64,000 nt of DNA from positions 7,817,047 to 7,881,046 of the forward strand of contig OZ024786.1 in the NCBI GenBank assembly GCA_964017065.1, read 5' to 3'. Position numbers and translations under genes: made by a program. The stretch is from Haliclona indistincta (Eukaryota; Porifera; Demospongiae; Haplosclerida; Chalinidae). Positions within the stretch are counted from its first letter, which is position 1; every line of letters starts with the position of its first letter. Under the pieces are notes generated by a model, which saw nothing but the letters and a program-made list of their open reading frames with translations, did no database searches and had not been told where the DNA came from. Shown here in pieces: positions 10,654-48,026 of this stretch.

Positions 10654-12593
10654 ATGGCTCGTCGTCAGTACTTCACAGGGGATGAAGTGCTTGCTTTGCT
10701 TGATCCAGATGTAGAGGATGGTGGCTTAGATGATACCTTTGCTCCAGGAAGTGATGATGAGCTTGGGTTCCTGGATGATAGTGAAGAAGAAGGAGACAAT
10801 GTAGAGCAAGTAGTGACTGGGTAAGTATTTCAAATACTTTATGATTATAATAATAATGTGGGTTCCTAAATGTTAGCGAAGGAGAAGGAGACAATGAAGA
10901 GCAAGTAGTGACTGGGTAAGTATTTCAAATACTTTATGATTATAATAATAATCTATAATACAGTGTTGATGATGCTTCTGGTGATCAAGATGAAGTGGAA
11001 TCAGATCCAATTCTTCGTGATGATGCTTTGAGGTATGTTTACTATGACTTTATTTATTTACTAACACAAACGTGAACATTTTACAGTTCCACTACAGTTC
11101 CATGGAGTGAAACTTTGACTCCAATCACCATCACTACATTTACCCAGCCGTCTGGTCCGACTCAGACACTACCATCAACCATCAAAAAAATCTACATGCT
11201 GTTCTTCACTTCATCGATCCTTGAAATGATCGTGGCAGAAACCAACAGATATGCTGCGGAGTGTCTTGGAGATGAGTTTCAGGCATGGCAACAACTAACT
11301 GTCGCTGAGTTCCAGGCATACACTGGGTTCATGATTCTAATGGGTTTGGTCAAGATGCCTTCAATCTACGATTATTGGCAAAAGGATGACATCTTCCACT
11401 ATGCTCCAATCGCAAGCAAAATATCCAGAGACAGATTTTTTGAAATACATCGCTACTTGCATTTTGTAAATAATGCAACCCTGGCTGCTCCTGGAACAGC
11501 AAACTACAAGAAGTTGGGAAAAATACAGCCAATCCTAGATGCCTTAGCGAAAAATTTTTCTCAGGTGTATCAACCTGGAAAAAACGTCTCGGTCGATGAA
11601 GCTATGGTGAAGTTCAAAGGCAGGTCCACCCTCAAGCAATACATGCCAAAGAAGCCAGTCAAACGTGGCTTCAAGATATGGATGCTGGCTGATGCTATGA
11701 CTGGCTATGTAACACACCTAGAAGTATACACTGGAAAGAAAGGGGACCGAACTGAAACAGGCTTAGGGGCTACAGTAGTGAAAACACTTTCAAAAGATCT
11801 ACAACACACTCACCGTCACGTGTACTTTGATAACTACTTTTCAGGAGTAGACTTGCTTCTTGACCTGTTTCGTTCAGGCCTATACGGTTGTGGCACACTC
11901 CGCTCGGACAGAAAGGGTTTTCCTCCTTCACTGAAACAGCCAGCTAAAAAAGGATATCAAGCCAGAGGGGAAAGTAAGACAATGCAATACGGTAATCTTA
12001 CTGTATCGGTATGGCAGGACAACCGTCCCGTAACTGTAATCGCAACTAATTCAGATCCTCTCACTCCTGCTACGGTAAACAGGAAAAAAAAGGATGGTAC
12101 CACGATATCTGTCCCTTGTCCAATATCAGTAAAGCAATACAACCAATACATGGGAGGTGTTGACCACAACGACCAACTGCGAGGCTATTATAATGTTCGA
12201 CTGAAGTGCCGAAAATATTATAAATATATTTTCTGGTTCTTGTTTGATCTCGCAATCACAAATAGTTACATCCTGACAAAGAATCATACTGACCTCAAAT
12301 TCTCAACACTAAAGAGTTTTCGTACCACCTTGGCACGAGAGTTGATAGGGGATTATTGCAGCAAGAAACGACCAGGTCGACATGCCCTGAATCCATCCAA
12401 AAGGTTCTGCCAGCAGCACTTCCCAACAAGACAGTCAAAGTATCATAGATGTCACTATTGCTACAAATACAAAAAACAACGCCATGAAACAGGATGGTAC
12501 TGCAATGATTGTGGGCTATACCTTTGCCATAACGGTAGGGATGACGAATGCTTTCTCCAATACCATCTGCAACATGGACCAACATGTAGTTAA
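10654..12593 (+). CDS. piggyBac transposase, three exons (10654-10820, 10964-11032, 11087-12593)
   Basis: Start ATG at 10654 reads MARRQYFTGDEVLALL, a typical piggyBac N-terminus followed by an acidic stretch. Exon 1 ends GG|GTAAGT, exon 2 runs from tacag|TG to AG|GTATGT, exon 3 from ttttacag|TT, and the phases join without error. The total is 580 residues, normal for the family. Catalytic Asp residues are visible in SVDEAMVKFKGR (about residue 249), YFDNYFSG (about 327) and MGGVDHNDQ (about 438), the DDD triad of piggyBac transposases. The C-terminus has the Cys/His cross-brace zinc finger (C-H-Y-C ... C-N-D-C ... L-C ... C). The enzyme should excise and reinsert the element at TTAA in the nucleus. 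No stop or frameshift interrupts it. Exon 1 and its donor lie inside a 95-bp tandem duplication; only the first donor gives an open frame. Confidence 0.93.
10765..10954 (+). repeat. 95-bp tandem duplication covering the end of transposase exon 1 and its splice donor
   Basis: Copy 1 (10765-10859) and copy 2 (10860-10954) differ at a handful of positions. Each contains the acidic exon end and an identical GGGTAAGTATTTC donor. Reading from copy 1 into its intron meets a stop quickly, so copy 2 is a decoy exon end within the first intron. Confidence 0.88.
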
Positions 12594-36072: not shown

Positions 36073-37404
36073 TCAGAGTTTACAGTTGAAGTTGATAGTG
36101 ATGTTCGAACAGTTTTGGATGGTTACACCGGGAGCCTCGCCGATCATCTGGCTACTATAGCCCACCGATTGAGATGTGACTGCTGGTACTGGCGTTGGCT
36201 GCGTTGCTGTCTGTGCAGTGGGTCTCTTAGCAGCAGGCACCATTGCCAAGATGTCAGACAGGGCCTCCTGCTGATCGGCGCTGGTTCTTTTGTAGCTGCG
36301 CACCCCATCCAGACTCCTGTGTCCTGTCCGCTCCATTATGAGCTGCTCGTCGACTCCATGGCGATAGAGACGCGTGGCTGCAGTGACGCGCAGGGAGTGA
36401 TTTGTTTTGTACCCAGGAATGCCTGCTTGGCGACACATATCTCTAACCATGTTGTCCAGAGTGTGGTAGCCTAGTGGCTTGATAGAGAACCAGCAGTTTG
36501 GCTTGGGCTTCTGCAATGGCTGTAAGTAGAACGTTCCTTTTGGGCAGTTTTCGGGGCAAAGCTGTTGATATTTCCTGAAAACGCTAACTGCACATCTCGC
36601 AGGATTCCCTGGGTTGTCGTGCTGAATGACTGTTTTAGGGTTGATCTTCCTTCTCTTTAAACCTCCTGGGTTATTCTTGGAAATATCTTCCACGTATTGA
36701 AGAAAAGGTCGTTGGCCAGGTCTTTCGACGATAGTGATTTGGCATTTACTGGCACGGTGGCGAAGCTGCCTGTGTTCATTACCACTTCGCAAAGCGAAAT
36801 AGATTCCATTGTGGAAAAACACGGTATTTAGCAGTGCCTGGGGAGTGTGGTCTCCAAGAATGCCTTTCTCCCACAGCAACTCTTCCTCTTCTTCGGTTAA
36901 TGGCTCTGCCTTTCGAGTCTTAGAGCCCAAGCCAGCAGCTTTTAGGTGTTTCATTTCCGAGTCCAACACGGTCCTGAACTCCTGAAAAGCAGGATCTTGG
37001 AAGAGGTCTAATTGTCGGCCGCTCTGTCTTAGGAAGCGCATTATTCCGCTAACTATGTGGTGTAAGGTAGCGGGAGGGTAGTGCTGTCCGTTCTCTTTGC
37101 GCACCTCCAGTATGAAACGGCAAAGCCAATGCTGCAGTTGGTCATTGTTGAGCGCCGTGATAGTTGGTATAGCAGCTTCAGTGGAACAGGAAGGTCGTTG
37201 GCTGCTCCACAAATCCCACAGCTTCATGCACCACTTTGTATCATTCCTGGTACTTTTTGGAACTGCTGCCTCTTTAGCTTGTTGCACGTCATTGCTCGTT
37301 ACAGGAGCTGCAAAACGTCGCTTGTTAGTAGGCGGAGCTGTTGTGGGCGGAGGAGAATCTTGAAAAAAAAGCAGCAATGACGTCCTCAGGAAAGTCGCTT
37401 TCAT
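36073..37404 (-). CDS. Tyrosine recombinase, Crypton / DUF3504 type
   Basis: The 443-codon frame has the full set of tyrosine recombinase catalytic residues. Arg is in F-A-L-R-S-G-N-E-H (R206), His/Arg in N-H-S-L-R-V-T-A-A-T-R (H336, R339), His in R-T-G-H-R-S (H362) and the Tyr nucleophile in V-R-S-Y-K-R (Y371). An N-terminal SAM-like region with W-C-M-K-L-W-D-L-W precedes it. DUF3504 proteins (ZMYM2-like in animals) descend from Cryptons, and this layout matches them. The C-terminus ends in N-C-S-N-I-T-I-N-F-N, a short Asn-rich motif that I recall in related invertebrate proteins. A better start lies upstream at 37462 (MAHNFRLAPPGWAES) in another frame; the two frames meet at a run of eight T. 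One base fewer there would join them, so this is either a mutation or a sequencing error. Confidence 0.82.
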   Translation of the reverse strand: MKATFLRTSLLLFFQDSPPPTTAPPTNKRRFAAPVTSNDVQQAKEAAVPKSTRNDTKWCMKLWDLWSSQRPSCSTEAAIPTITALNNDQLQHWLCRFILEVRKENGQHYPPATLHHIVSGIMRFLRQSGRQLDLFQDPAFQEFRTVLDSEMKHLKAAGLGSKTRKAEPLTEEEEELLWEKGILGDHTPQALLNTVFFHNGIYFALRSGNEHRQLRHRASKCQITIVERPGQRPFLQYVEDISKNNPGGLKRRKINPKTVIQHDNPGNPARCAVSVFRKYQQLCPENCPKGTFYLQPLQKPKPNCWFSIKPLGYHTLDNMVRDMCRQAGIPGYKTNHSLRVTAATRLYRHGVDEQLIMERTGHRSLDGVRSYKRTSADQQEALSDILAMVPAAKRPTAQTATQPTPVPAVTSQSVGYSSQMIGEAPGVTIQNCSNITINFNCKL

Positions 37405-37529
37405 CAGTTGGCCAGTCGCTTTCAGCCCAACCTGGAGGAGCTAGCCTAAAGTTGTGAGCCATTTCTTGCAACTGTGCGTCGTATGTAATGCGTCTTTTTG
37501 TTGTTGCTGTAGTATGTAGTATAAATACC

Positions 37530-37782: not shown

Positions 37783-39420
37783 ATTTTTTTTTTAACTTTT
37801 CAACATGAAAATAACAAAAGCTAATACAAGTCATGTTCTAAAAGAAATTTAACTAAATTATATTTAAAAGAAGAGATAGAAATAGTCGATTGGAGAGAAA
37901 AAGGGAGTGAATTCCAAAGAACAACAGAATTAGGAACAAAGGAGTGTAAGAAATAATTTGTACGTACAATAGGTTTAATAAGATTTAAATTACGGTTACT
38001 AGTATAAGGTGAGTTATTAAAGTTAAATATATTTACAGGAAAGTAAGAGTAATTGTACAAGATACCATGTAGAGTGGTTAATTTTAAATATTGTCTACGT
38101 AATTTTAATGGAGGTAAGTCAAGTTCAATTAGCATGTCTGTATAACTCATATCCCATCTCTTTAGGCATACATGTACCTTACAAGCAAATTTCTGTACTG
38201 ATTCAAGAGATTGTATTTGAGAGGCTGTCTGGGGGTCCCATAGTTGACAGGCATATTCTAGATGTGGCCGAATTGAAGTCAAGTAAATAGTCTTTAAAGT
38301 GCTCTTGTCTGCCCACGCATAGAATTGTCTGTACAGCATGCCTATAAGTTTCCTAGCCTTCTTACAGATGTTTGATATATGATCATTCCATGACAATCTT
38401 TCAGTGACAAGTACACCCAGATAACGGTACTGCCGTACCCTTTCTAGCACTTCATTATTTAAGTGTAATCCAGATGGTGGCAGCGTTGGAGATGATTTTT
38501 TCGAGCAGACAAGATACTTGCACTTTTCAGGGTTCAAAGTTAAAGATCTCGCAGAGATGCAATTGTAGATACTGTTTATGTCTGTCTGTAGTTTACCATA
38601 ATCGTCAGCACAGGTGATCGGTTTGTACATCATAATATCATCAGCATCCAGAGTGACACTGGTACCCTCAGAAAGTTTAAGCTGTGAAACCTCGTTTATA
38701 TAAATCAAAAAGAGCAAAGGACCAAGAACTGACCCTTGAGGGACTCCAGATGTAACAGTTGTCAGGCGTGGCCCGATTCGGCTAACCATCTTTCACTGAT
38801 AGCAACAAGAGGGCTTCCATTTCCAGTGTGATCAGTCCCGCGCCAAGACAATCTTGTAAAATGTCGTTTTTACACCTATAGACCTTCACTCTGTTCATAC
38901 TGTCCGGGGTCCGACCGAGGGGTAAGGCACGAAATGTTGCACCAGAGAACACACCATCAACAGCCACAACCTGTCGTCTGTTGAACAAATAAGAGGAAAG
39001 CCACTGCAGAATGATAGGATGAAGATTAATTTGCTTTAATTTGTTTAGAAGAGGTAGATGTGGCACGCTGTCAAAGGCCTTTTTAATATCAAAAAATAAG
39101 ATGGAGACGTCAAGGCCCTTATCTTAAGTAGCTGAGAACCTGGTGGAAAGTTGCCACCAGAGCTGTTGTGGTAGATTTTCCAGGAGAAAACCCATTCAGA
39201 GTCAGTGGTTAGACCATTAATGACAAGATGATCATAGATGACATTATACATATTATGTCTCCCTAAGACTTTGCTGACAATTGAGAGAAGGGATATTGGT
39301 CGATACTTAGCTGGATTGTCCCTTATTGTTTGTTCTTTAACAGAATAATGTTAAGTTTGTTAACACATGCGATATGAGCAATTTCCCGGAAATCATTTGG
39401 CAAATAGTAGGTAAATTGTA
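37783..39420 (-). pseudogene. LINE reverse transcriptase (CR1/Jockey-like), 5' truncated, with insertion and frameshifts
   Basis: Reading on the minus strand, the relic starts with P-A-K-Y-R-P-I-S-L-L-S (about 39300) and D-H-L-V-I-N-G-L. After frame changes it continues with P-H-L-P-L-L-N-K-L-K-Q-I-N-L-H-P. After an insertion of about 160 bp it goes on with V-T-S-G-V-P-Q-G-S-V-L-G-P-L-L-F-L-I-Y-I-N. The active-site word is L-D-A-D-D-I-M-M-Y: the Tyr of Y-A-D-D has become Asp. The thumb and C-terminal part (R-Q-Y-R-Y-L-G-V ... L-E-Y-A-C-Q-L-W-D-P ... V-V-L-W-N-S-L-P) are complete in one 322-codon frame. It ends close to an A-run (T-run at 37781-37793 on the plus strand) typical of LINE 3' tails. 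No endonuclease part remains. Confidence 0.85.
38791..38952. other. Foreign segment of about 160 bp inserted in the LINE
   Basis: The reverse transcriptase sequence breaks off after V-A-V-D-G and resumes with the S-R-I-G-P-R-L stretch. On both sides of the break is the word ACCATC (38785-38790 and 38953-38958), a possible 6-bp target duplication. The insert has no inverted ends that I can see and no coding content. Its origin is unknown. Confidence 0.5.
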
Positions 39421-42945: not shown

Positions 42946-43582
42946 TAATCTTGACAAGGATCTATGGGATTTATCAATTCATTTCTTGCTGTGACAAAGG
43001 TCAACCCTGACATGTGGAATGTCATCAGCCTCAGGTATGGGACCATCCCAGTCAACGCCATACAGATCATTAACCTGCATAATTATAATGAAATAATCTA
43101 TTACTTTTAACAGGGGTTCCAGTACTAAAAGTTTCAGACCCTAAGCCAAAAAAGAGGGTGGGTGGGTAAAGACCATTTTGGAAAAAAGTCCATTTATTGA
43201 AAAAATAGTTCAGGCATTTTTATGAGTTTCTGATCTATTTCTGACAAGTTATGTGCATAATTTCTACTATCATGTCCATTAAATCAGTTTATTTTCTGAA
43301 TATTTTGACAAATCAATAATCCGCCAATAATCAATAATGTTTACAGAATAGCTATGGTTGCATGGTAATGGGATTTATCAATTCACGATGACATGTCCTC
43401 ACGGTGTTGTTCTGAAATCAATGTTTAAGATATAAACTGAAGACTGAATCAAACAGAAACATGCTTGTACAGAAAACAAGCTAGCTGGCACTCAGTTACT
43501 AGTTAGCTATACTCGGTCTACTGCAATTCCACTACCTCTTGACCGGCTTTGATTTTTCAAATTTTCCTGCTTTGAGAACTGT
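42946..43582. other. No supported gene
   Basis: This lies between the direct repeats and the stop codon of the 43.6-47.5 kb gene. It contains a GGGT-rich word (gggtgggtgggtaa) at about 43157. I looked for an inverted partner at the far end of that gene and found none that was convincing. Confidence 0.35.
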
Positions 43583-46500
43583 TCATTTCTCAACTGAAGA
43601 GATTTGGAATGCATCTGGTAGGACAGAGTTACTGTGGCGATCTTGAAAGTGTGTCGTCATGTTGTACTTCCAATGGATCTGACTACCTTGGGATTCTTGG
43701 CATAGCAAAGGAATGTTCGTGCAGGGTGAATTTGTCGTGCCTTTAGCAGCACTAGCTAGTGAAAATTTATAGAAGTATTCACAATCTGACTGAGGTCCTT
43801 TAAAATGCTGGGACATCTTCTTTGTCTCAATAGTACACGTGCACGATTTCCCGCAAAAACCACTTGCATATGGCAAGCAATCACAGCAGAGAATATGGAA
43901 ACCCACATGAAGCCTCATCTGTACTTTCTTGATTCCTTTTTGACATAGCTTGCAGGTAAGCATAGATTTACGTTTGCCACTGATTGAAGATGTTACTTCA
44001 TTTGACAAAGCAGACAAAGCTTTCTTCTTCATAGGAGTTAAGATAAGGAAGAAAGTTGCAATCAGTAGAGGCTAGTTCAGCAACTTTATCCAGAGACTGG
44101 CTCCACATATACTCACACAATACTGACAGCTCCTGTTTATCAAAGTGGTATGTCATCTTTCGGGAATTGTCTGGAACCGACACATCGGGATTCACTGGGT
44201 GGACATGTGAGCCAGATGTGGTTAGTTGTACACCAAGAGAACAGTCCCATACCCACTCACTCTCTGTATCTTTCAATACCGCAACAGGACCAGTTATTTT
44301 CACTCTACTGTGTGCTAACTCAGCAACTGTGAGAGAAGACACCTTCTTAGCAGTATGATTAGAAATAGAGTCCACCAAAAAGAAGGCAAGGCAAACTTTA
44401 CCAGTGCTTGTGTGTACAAGAGTACAACATGGATCACCAACACAAAGACTATCATCTTCAATATCACCACTTAACATGTTTGTACCATGTTTGGACATAC
44501 CTCGAACACGTCTAAGGCGATCACTAGACTTGGGATCTGAGGAAAACAAATTCGGACTACTGAAGCCTTATGTACCATCCTTCCATCATGCTCTATGAAT
44601 CCATTTGCTACTCTTCCATCAAGTGGTAGAGCGTCTTCAATATCAATATCCTCATCCTCTTCAGATTGTGTTTTGCGATATCAGGACTGCCCCGGTGGCA
44701 GCTTCCTCCTCTTGTTCTTCCGAATTAATGCTGCTTCCTATGACTACACCGCGAGGACATGTCATCGTGAATCCCTCAGTAGACCAAGCATCGTAGTCTA
44801 GTTCATTACCTGTAAATAGCCTGGTGCTGGTCAAAAACTGATAAGCAATAATTCGACCTCTGAACCAGCACTGAATTACGTCTACATCAGATGTGGAAGG
44901 AGATCCAACCCATGACGTGGGGTTCATGTAGTCTTGGCTGCCCTGTAGCCGTTTAGAAGCTCGTTTCCACTCTGGATGCTTCTGGTACAGCTGAGATATT
45001 TGTGTGGCATGTGAAAGTCTTTCTCCACACTGCAGCATATCAAAATTTGTATCACGAGTAAGCGTACGAAGAACACTAAAAAGCCCTTCTAATCTGTCTG
45101 TGCCCAGTTGAAACAAGTACAAGGGATTATCTGGAAACTGCTGCTGCATTCCACTGTGACAAGGTAGGCACACTTAATCATTGCCTGACAGTCATGATAC
45201 AGCTGTGCTGGTATGAATTTCGTTGCATTCCGCCTGTATAAAACTATCAGAGAGTGACTAAGAGATGACAATTTCACTAGCTGATCTTTGAGAGAGTGAG
45301 TTACTGTAAAGAGATATGAAGATAGGCATTCACAAATGAATGAAAGAACTTTTACTTCAGACAAGATCACCTCTTCCGAAGGTGTAAGTGAGCAATCAAG
45401 AGTAGAGAGTTGTGAAACAGCCTTAAGTAGAGAAACTGCCAGAGGTACATTTTGAGAATCATCAGGATGTAGCAGTTGCTCGACATTAGGGAGATTCAGT
45501 TTGTCAAGAAATCTCTTGAGTAGACCTCCTGTTATCTTAACTCTACATATCAACGAACCTCTTAAGAACCTCACAGAATCTCTTAATGATGTGTTTGTCA
45601 TCAAACTGCACAACTACATCATCAACACCAACAGCAGTATCCATTAGAGTTAACTGCTCAAGGACAGAGGCAATTGCTGGTGAAGGTGTTTCATTAACTC
45701 ATTAAGAGCTGATCAAATGCTAGACGTCGCGTAGCATCCCCATCTGTTGAAACTAGAACTATTGGACCTAGAGAGGCTGTACGAGAATCATTTCTCCACT
45801 CATCAAGAATACTATTGATCATCTCACGTTGGCAATCTGATGTTTCAGCTTTATAAGTGGGGAGAGCTAGAAGAGGAACAGCTGAACAGCTAGCTTTTCT
45901 CAGAGGTGCAATTGATATGACTGTGACTTCACTGGCAAGGTGTATTATGCTCTGTTGGACAGCATCAACAACCACATGCACATCATCAATGGAATCAAAT
46001 TTAAGACCAACACGTCAGCCATGTTCTCTACAAATGCCATACAATTTTTTATCATCTGCATTCCATCGTACCCTTTGCTCACATGAAACCTCGTCAATTA
46101 GCATAACCCAGCCACAAGCCTCACCTTGATCAAGAGCAAGAAGCATGCTAGATAGATTCATCCAAAGTACTTCTCTATCGTAGGCACCAACACTAGGACT
46201 GAATTTAGCAGCTTGCTGCTTATATAGAAGACCTACTGAAGGTATTCCAAACACTTGATGTAGTGCATGCACCAATCTGGGGCCACCGATACGGAGAACT
46301 AACAAACCAATGTCGATATCGTCTGTTTGAAATCCCTTAGCATGATACATTCCATTTAGTGCTAGCTGGACTCGATCAAGAATGTAATTTACACTGGCTC
46401 CTTTGCGTAAACATACATTCAAAAGCTGCCTTACTCTAGGGATATCATTCTCACCTTGAAACCATAGTAGGCGGCGCTTGTACAAGTCTACACTGTTAGC

Positions 46501-47456
46501 TAGCTTGGAGAGCTTTCGACTGCTGTTAAGTTTTAATAACCTAAGATTCGTTCGCTCTTCAATCACTTTTTCAACTTTCTCAACAAGCTGTGGGTAAGTG
46601 AGAAAGCGATTGTTGGTGTGTTGGGAAGGAAAATGTGCACGTGACTCGATATGCCTTAACGCAGTAGTAAACATAAGTGCAGAACAAGCGGTACAATTCG
46701 ACTGACCAATCTCAGCACTTTTGCTGAGAAAACTGCAGACTGTGTGAAAGTGAAGGGGAATTTAGTGAACGCATGTAGCTAGAAGGGATAGTTGAGGATG
46801 AATGGTTCAGGAACATTTGGTACAAAACCTTGGCAAGCATTGTGAGTACAATCAGCCATTGCCTCAGAGGTGACCTCGTTATCATCAGCAACCAAGCATT
46901 GCATGATATTAGCATCATCAGTGTCAAAGCTAGACTCACTGGTTGAACACATTAGATCATTTTCCATCTCTTGTGTTGATGTGTTTGAGCTTTGTTGGAT
47001 GACATTACTGGAATCAGCTGGATGTAGGTAAAAAGAGATGAGTAATCATGGCAGAGTATTAGCTGAAGGTTAAAAATTAAAACACAGCAGCTGAGGTTTC
47101 TACAATAGCCATGTCAGAACTCTTTGCACAGTAATAACAGCAGCCATGTATGCAGCAGCACTCTTTAGCAATGTACATTGATGATGTCTGGATGAATCAG
47201 CTATTCTGGCTTAGAGGTAGTACTCACCAAGTTCGAGCTGTCTGGATTCAGTGCTAAGCTCCATTTCCACAACAGGTGTGTCCTTGTGCGCTCCTGCAGC
47301 CTTGGAAAAGTAGCTGTCCAGGCGTCGCATCTTGCTTGATGTCATGGCTTGCCTATGCCGCTTGCTCTTTTCGTGTTCAGCTGTGTGGTAGCCACTGAGG
47401 GCTGTTATTTCAAACCCACAGTCACAATAACGGCGTCTCTTCTGCTCCCTAGCCAT
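43583..47456 (-). pseudogene. Large DDE-like protein with terminal zinc fingers, decayed copy
   Basis: Start ATG at 47456 (MAREQKRRRYCDCGFE) leads into a Cys/His finger. Exon 1 ends CTTG|GTGAGTA at 47228 and joins in phase to an exon after ctacatccag at 47017. Further exons read in order: a helical region (about 46.7 kb), L-I-D-E-V-S-C-E-Q-R-V-R with first acidic residue (about 46.1 kb), one in-frame TGA, V-S-T-D-G-D-A-T-R-R with second Asp (45.74 kb), F-D-D-K-H-I-I-K-R-F (45.6 kb), L-L-H-P-D-D-S-Q-N-V-P-L-A, then L-G-T-D-R-L-E-G-L-F-S-V-L-R with a third acidic residue (45.1 kb). S-S-D-R-L-R-R-V-R-G follows at 44.5 kb. The C-terminal fingers include C-G-F-C-G-like and C-T-N-I-P-L-L-C ... W-K-Y-N-M-x-x-H words. 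The same order occurs in a protein family that I remember from basidiomycete genomes. Frame changes at about 45.7, 45.6, 45.15, 44.6 and 44.03 kb cannot all be introns, so this copy is dead. Confidence 0.55.
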
Positions 47457-47528
47457 CGTTCGCGTAGTATTCGCGATCGACGCATGAATATTAAGTTCGT
47501 GGTATTGCGTGACTATAATTAACAACAT

Positions 47529-48026
47529 GAATAATCAAGCGCAAATTATGAATATCGTTATAATGATGCAAAATGACGTAGTGGGTGGTGGGTAACGGCC
47601 TCTCTTCCTCTATGATAGGTTCGGCTTGCTTTCTTTTGCTGTTTTCACTGACACTGGTTAATCTTTCCACACCCCTGCAATAGGCAGACCGCTCACCAAT
47701 CTATGTGATCCTTAAGTATTGACACAGCTTTAATACCGTCAACAGTTTTAACTGTTAATTCTGCTTCTTGACTGCACATTTGAATAAAAACATGAGTTCT
47801 GTATAAATGCTGTTCGCTTGGCAGGTTGATCGTTCTATGGCTGATGCTAACTCCTTTATCTAATCACATAATTATTATAAGAAAAGTATACATTGAACTG
47901 CTTTTGATTAAGTACCATAAATCTTCTAGGCTGTCTATCACGTGCTTTCTTTTAACTGTGTCAATTACAAAAATAGTTGACGAAAGGCATAATACAAAAT
48001 AACATTTATGAGTCCATCATAAAAGC
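47529..48026. other. No supported gene
   Basis: Sequence upstream of the 47.5-kb start codon. It probably contains that gene's former promoter, but no motif can be named. No terminal repeat was recognised. Confidence 0.35.

Follow-up and report, generated by a model that had tools for sequence, protein, structure and literature searches.

A 64,000-nucleotide stretch of contig OZ024786.1, hereafter called the window, contains on its minus strand about nine open stretches (43,583-47,456) that together, and in order, read as one long protein, and the locus raises the question of what kind of gene has decayed there and to which known genes it is related. The original prediction, made from the sequence alone, had proposed that a DDE-like gene family otherwise known from mushrooms is present in an animal-type genome, either as an ancient DNA transposon or after horizontal transfer, and that no described superfamily covers it. 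According to the comparisons reported here, the locus very probably represents a defunct cut-and-paste DNA transposon with a THAP-less transposase that is distantly related to those of the P element and THAP9. It can be regarded as a well-supported transposon of a THAP-less P-like lineage, that is, neither as a canonical P element nor as a superfamily without known kin. The Wnt family is specific to animals, and because Wnt-family matches were detected in seven stretches (best 128.8 bits), the host is indeed an animal.

Genomic copies, ends and target duplications

The genome searched comprises 144 Mb in 46 contigs, the window included. A copy with an open 1,225-codon frame, L034 on contig C7, is 63% identical to the window copy, and its upstream exon (L034 6911-7339, minus strand), which carries a similar Cys/His motif, matches exon 1 of the window copy. 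Locus comparison revealed that the L034 element has sharp limits and a length of 4,449 bp. L038, L040 and L041 correspond to the L034 element minus its middle and are 97-98% identical to L034 over the common parts; L039 is the same internally deleted element, also 97-98% identical to L034, without the 5' end. L043 and L044 form a related group at about 70-80% identity. A long tandem array, with frames reading GSHREFTKPQGCTIGVPPRIHKTP..., adjoins the intact copy (L034 4-2291, minus strand).

The elements show CGGGGGGTCCCA... at one end and ...GACCCCCTG at the other, and their terminal inverted repeats, of the CGGGGGGTCCCA / CAGGGGGTCCCA type, are short and imperfect. At fixed boundaries, an exact 8-bp target duplication was found in 17 of 20 copies, namely among L034, L038, L040, L041, L044 and 15 copies selected for closely spaced end pairs. 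For the remaining three, the duplication becomes exact when one end is moved by 2 bases (L045), comprises 7 bases (L050) or agrees at 7/8 positions by eye (L059). When left and right flanks of different copies were paired instead, agreement was seen in none of the 380 swapped pairs. At least four further end pairs (C1:5402977, C2:13769935, C7:10542720, C8:2794388) lie outside this count, as do L035-L037, L039, L042 and L043, in which no end pair was seen (11 loci in the set). In the window copy's own subfamily, both ends are present in three of the eight copies (845-896 bp apart), all three with exact 8-bp duplications, and the other five lack a 5' end within the stretch examined. Searches with the ends yielded 180, 135 and 83 candidates; 40 of each were scored and those matched, so that the short copies number at least dozens. 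Moreover, ACCCACCC repeats occur in the same orientation about 45-70 bp inside both ends and are candidate binding sites for the transposase. The inverted ends and fixed-length duplications around complete copies are those of a DNA transposon, as had been suggested.

These copies also bear on whether the gene could be a host gene domesticated from a transposon. Only one copy with a full-length open frame was found, and the D2 residue of this copy is changed, as might be expected after domestication. However, terminal repeats and an 8-bp duplication enclose L034, deleted derivatives nearly identical to it (97-98%) exist, and the two-ended derivatives carry duplications of their own. Domestication, already contradicted for this genome, is therefore hardly conceivable.

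Catalytic core and placement near P elements

The separated acidic motifs had been read as a sign of a D-D-E integrase fold. Indeed, the structure predicted for the relative P0044 has an RNase H-like core, with one D on beta-1 (D128 in E123-131), a second just after beta-4 (D241 after E235-240) and the E on alpha-4 (E468 in H465-477), and the converse outcome, acidic residues that stay apart, was not found. The catalytic triad is present in 48-49 and the D(2)H motif in 49 of 51 rows of an alignment made from the 88 family proteins known then, from which shorter or partial ones were mostly omitted, and the median distance from D(2)H to E is 179 residues (46 rows with all sites). Residues 290-451 of the P0044 model are mostly helices, with two short strands at 307-315; in the P transposase, an insertion at 339-528 between D339 and E531 is described (PMC8230255).

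The best fold match of the predicted structure is the P transposase, 8 to 16 Z units over Transib, RAG1 and Hermes. Profile-profile comparison revealed homology to the canonical P elements of the same genome over 348 columns, including a CxxC and a [ST]HxNxR[FY]L motif upstream of the core; the P profile match takes in CxxC/HTNxRFL, the two Asp motifs and D(2)H. Searches of PDB sequences with the family gave chance matches only, the P transposase not among them, and a canonical P frame of the same genome used as query likewise found no PDB sequence match. Homology to P is evident only from the profile-profile comparison and the predicted fold. No match at E <= 0.001 was obtained in a viral fold library, nor was any relative confirmed among the viral contigs scanned. 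A P-profile match at C4:9034648, 0.6 kb from a weak family match, was set aside as resembling, by its motifs, a canonical P fragment.

The statement that no described superfamily covers the family has to be given up, because the profile-profile comparison and the fold ranking identify its core as a P element transposase core. A separate superfamily, equidistant from P, Transib/RAG and hAT and with 8-bp duplications by convergence, would account for a sequence beyond the cut-off of every Pfam model, for the additional C-terminal domain and for the length of the branch that separates it from canonical P (2.71 changes per column on each side of the root in the drawn tree, where the P rows are filled in 32-35% of columns). 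However, the margin of the P fold match and the span of the P profile match, together with the similar E motif, render such a superfamily improbable.

Canonical P elements are numerous in this genome, with 59 PF21787 and 39 PF21789 matches, and two P-type transposon lineages coexist in it. The frames at L065 and L067 are canonical P frames fused in frame to long tandem-repeat runs (PSQLAST...), and the frame at the place of L065 is open over 1,249 codons.

Mushroom relatives and history of the family

The kinship with mushroom proteins is borne out by sequence searches. The window fragments joined with X matched proteins of Mycena alexandri, Pholiota molesta and Suillus occidentalis with E 5.8e-70 to 8.1e-63 and query coverages of 95%, 90% and 58%, respectively; these were the three matches at E <= 0.001 among 7993 scored candidates. 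Because of these matches and of the 63% identical open copy in the same genome, the motif series is not due to chance. A four-row profile retrieved at least 87 proteins at E <= 0.001 among the 7993 candidates, a lower bound, with P0002, itself a profile row, not among the matches listed. The organism-labelled matches belong to Agaricomycetes, and two others are JGI proteins; one match carries unrelated TPR-type Pfam domains. The L034 protein as query gave six matches: four to mushroom proteins and two to ENA proteins, the latter at 41% and 48% identity. Furthermore, a protein of Auricularia (P0093) holds LLGTDRLEELFGILR, nearly identical to the motif L-G-T-D-R-L-E-x-L-F-G-I-L-R of the original prediction, and the loose PCxNVPxxC pattern occurs in 39 of 48 fetched proteins of at least 1,000 amino acids (aa). 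In Agaricomycetes, the transposase family is a family of long "hypothetical proteins".

In a tree of 31 rows, with SH-aLRT support only, the window copy, L034 and the two ENA proteins form one clade (support 100), which meets the fungal lines at an open fork and is joined there by rows of Irpex and Auricularia. Pairwise identities between animal-type and fungal proteins were about 25-28% where measured. The tree is compatible with old inheritance or horizontal transfer, and recent transfer appears disfavoured because the identity is low. No paper on P-type transposons of mushrooms was among the openly licensed PMC literature listed, and a Repbase entry is possible.

Several observations weigh against a transposon of P-like descent in both kingdoms. 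PF21787 reached 13.7-16.6 bits in three family members, the cut-off being 24.6, and in the Pfam scans neither the window fragments nor the relatives reached the cut-off of any model, the P models included; we take the sub-cut-off score as a limit of the profile and not as a superfamily-defining trait. No THAP match was found at E <= 1 in exon 1 of the window copy, in exon 1 of L034 or in 12 relatives, and therefore the element is not filed as a canonical P. The rank order of the folds relies on predicted structures. Of 31 long fungal proteins, 9 show a simple N-terminal finger pattern, but several of these matches look like chance, so that any fungal counterpart of exon 1 would be conjectural. 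Element ends and 8-bp duplications were seen only in the animal genome, and the fungal members as proteins only. Finally, L034, the sole full-length open frame found, reads ATNGD at residue 462, where TDGD stands in both the window copy and L037, and KDGD in L036, and L034 may be inactive because N replaces D in its second acidic motif.

With these points in mind, we tentatively suggest that the family might be a THAP-less P-type branch of superfamily rank that predates the animal/fungal split, or crossed between the kingdoms, and later gave rise to a large transposase family in mushrooms and to recently mobile copies in an animal genome. If so, P transposases would predate THAP, the latter having been acquired later, in animals. 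Through this family, many Pfam-less "hypothetical proteins" of mushrooms gain a probable function and mechanism; the family also extends the P-type transposase past the THAP-bearing animal lineage and provides a relative for asking whether GTP dependence and the helical insertion predate THAP. Dozens or more of the short repeats in the genome searched are likewise accounted for, as deletion derivatives of a single type of transposon.

The window copy and known transposon systems

All motifs listed in the original prediction were recovered by frame reading on the minus strand, in the order given, and lie within 43583..47456, but the element is larger. Aligned to the complete copies L074, L078 and L079, the whole decayed element covers 43111..47599 (minus strand, as for all features of the element given below); its 3' end is retained (43111), and about 53 bp are missing from the outer 5' end. 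Because of this loss no target duplication is expected, and the 8 bases beyond the two limits disagree by eye. CAGGGG at window 47677 was considered as the 5' end and dropped, since the complete copies show that the outer 5' end is missing. A 5' subterminal block with TTACCCACCACCC (47532..47594) is common to the 5' ends of L034, L038, L040 and L041, a subterminal block with ACCCACCC repeats (43127..43190) to the 3' ends of L034 and L038-L041, and the 3' terminal inverted repeat reads ACTGGAACCCCTG (43111..43123).

The gene is interrupted by several in-frame stops and frameshifts. Exon 1 (47227..47456, from the reading of open frames) encodes the N-terminal Cys/His stretch (C-x-C...H...H) and ends at a likely GT splice donor. 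Its region with the Cys/His motif (window 47254-47446) recurs in at least 34 other genomic places at 81-90% identity and is retained between both ends of the complete short copies L074, L078 and L079; a 42-base piece of it (query 162-203) is also found inverted nearby in several copies. The long exon starts at 46779..47045 with an acidic linker, by eye like the start of the L034 open frame, and its frame is broken at the end. The CxxC and HTNxRFL motif, a helical region and beta-1 follow at 46018..46761, with LIDEV (46101-46087) providing the first catalytic Asp (D codon 46095-46093), and RNase H-like strands at 45697..46014, with VSTDGD (45753-45736) providing the second (D codon 45744-45742). 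The stretch 45546..45698 holds the D(2)H motif (D-D-K-H, from 45602, in D-D-K-H-I-I-K-R), whose role is known from the P transposase (PMC8230255), and the start of the helical insertion. The insertion domain (HPDDSQNVPLA...) was placed at 45092..45613 from structure models, and the third catalytic residue, the E of GTDRLEGLF (45104-45078; E codon 45089-45087), lies with the helices after it at 44664..45173. A short fragment with an acidic linker and an HKASVVRI strand (44471..44680), a beta-rich C-terminal region (DRLRRVRG, VGDPCCTL...; 44001..44567) and the C-terminal Cys/His fingers (CxxC...HxxxH; PCTNIPxxC...WKYNM...H...H; 43586..44071) complete the protein.

Other elements are present in the window. 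An open 505-aa frame (11076-12590, plus strand) has a full-length piggyBac-type transposase domain (DDE_Tnp_1_7, E 2.6e-90). A 455-aa open frame (36076-37440, minus strand) with DUF3504, QRICH1 and phage-integrase (tyrosine recombinase) matches could be Crypton-like or a host gene of that kind, and a reverse transcriptase fragment (37824-38792, minus strand; RVT_1, E 2.4e-12) derives perhaps from a non-LTR (long terminal repeat) element.

By analogy with P (PMC7776569), the transposase would bind subterminal sites near both ends, probably via its N- or C-terminal Cys/His fingers, pair the two ends and excise the element with the RNase H-like D-D-E site, split by the mostly helical insertion; any GTP use would be conjectural. 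Joining to the target would occur with an 8-bp stagger, which is evident from the 8-bp duplications observed.

Academ, KDZ, Plavaka and hAT were considered as well and ranked behind P. Academ (AcademH/AcademX) is a superfamily known in both animals and fungi, and its transposases also have Cys-rich tails, which was counted in favour of membership. The title of Kojima 2020, a reference listed in both PMC10799480 and PMC10045372, points to a similar host range. However, duplications of 9-10 bp (AcademH) or 3-4 bp (AcademX), as described in PMC10045372, compare by description with 8 bp here, and no helicase or nuclease match was found in the two L034 frames tested; membership is very unlikely. 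KDZ and Plavaka are described as prominent in mushrooms (Marasmius oreades, PMC8290104). No Pfam transposase-model match was found in the 10 fungal members scanned (E <= 1). Pfam contains KDZ and Plavaka models. The hAT element Hermes also has 8-bp duplications and ends beginning CAGGG; Pfam scans of 12 relatives and 2 pieces of L034 detected no hAT C-terminal dimerisation domain at E <= 1, but these scans missed P too. Transib and RAG1, second in the fold ranking, share an RNase H core with a helical insertion.

The closest known system is the P element/THAP9. Unlike it, the family has a different N-terminal Cys/His motif and no detected THAP, longer gene models (about 1,060-1,680 aa) with a beta-rich, finger-bearing tail, ends of the type C[AG]GGGGGT and relatives found here mostly in Agaricomycetes; THAP is described as absent from fungi (PMC7776569). 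The canonical P elements of the same genome (PF21787 matches) form a clade separate from this family in the tree and have clear Pfam P matches (96.7 bits), whereas those of the family are weak. What the family shares with P element and THAP9, as these are described in PMC7776569 and PMC8230255, is the predicted core fold, the order D, D, D(2)H, E with a DPLExxFG-like E motif, 8-bp duplications, short inverted ends and internally deleted derivatives.
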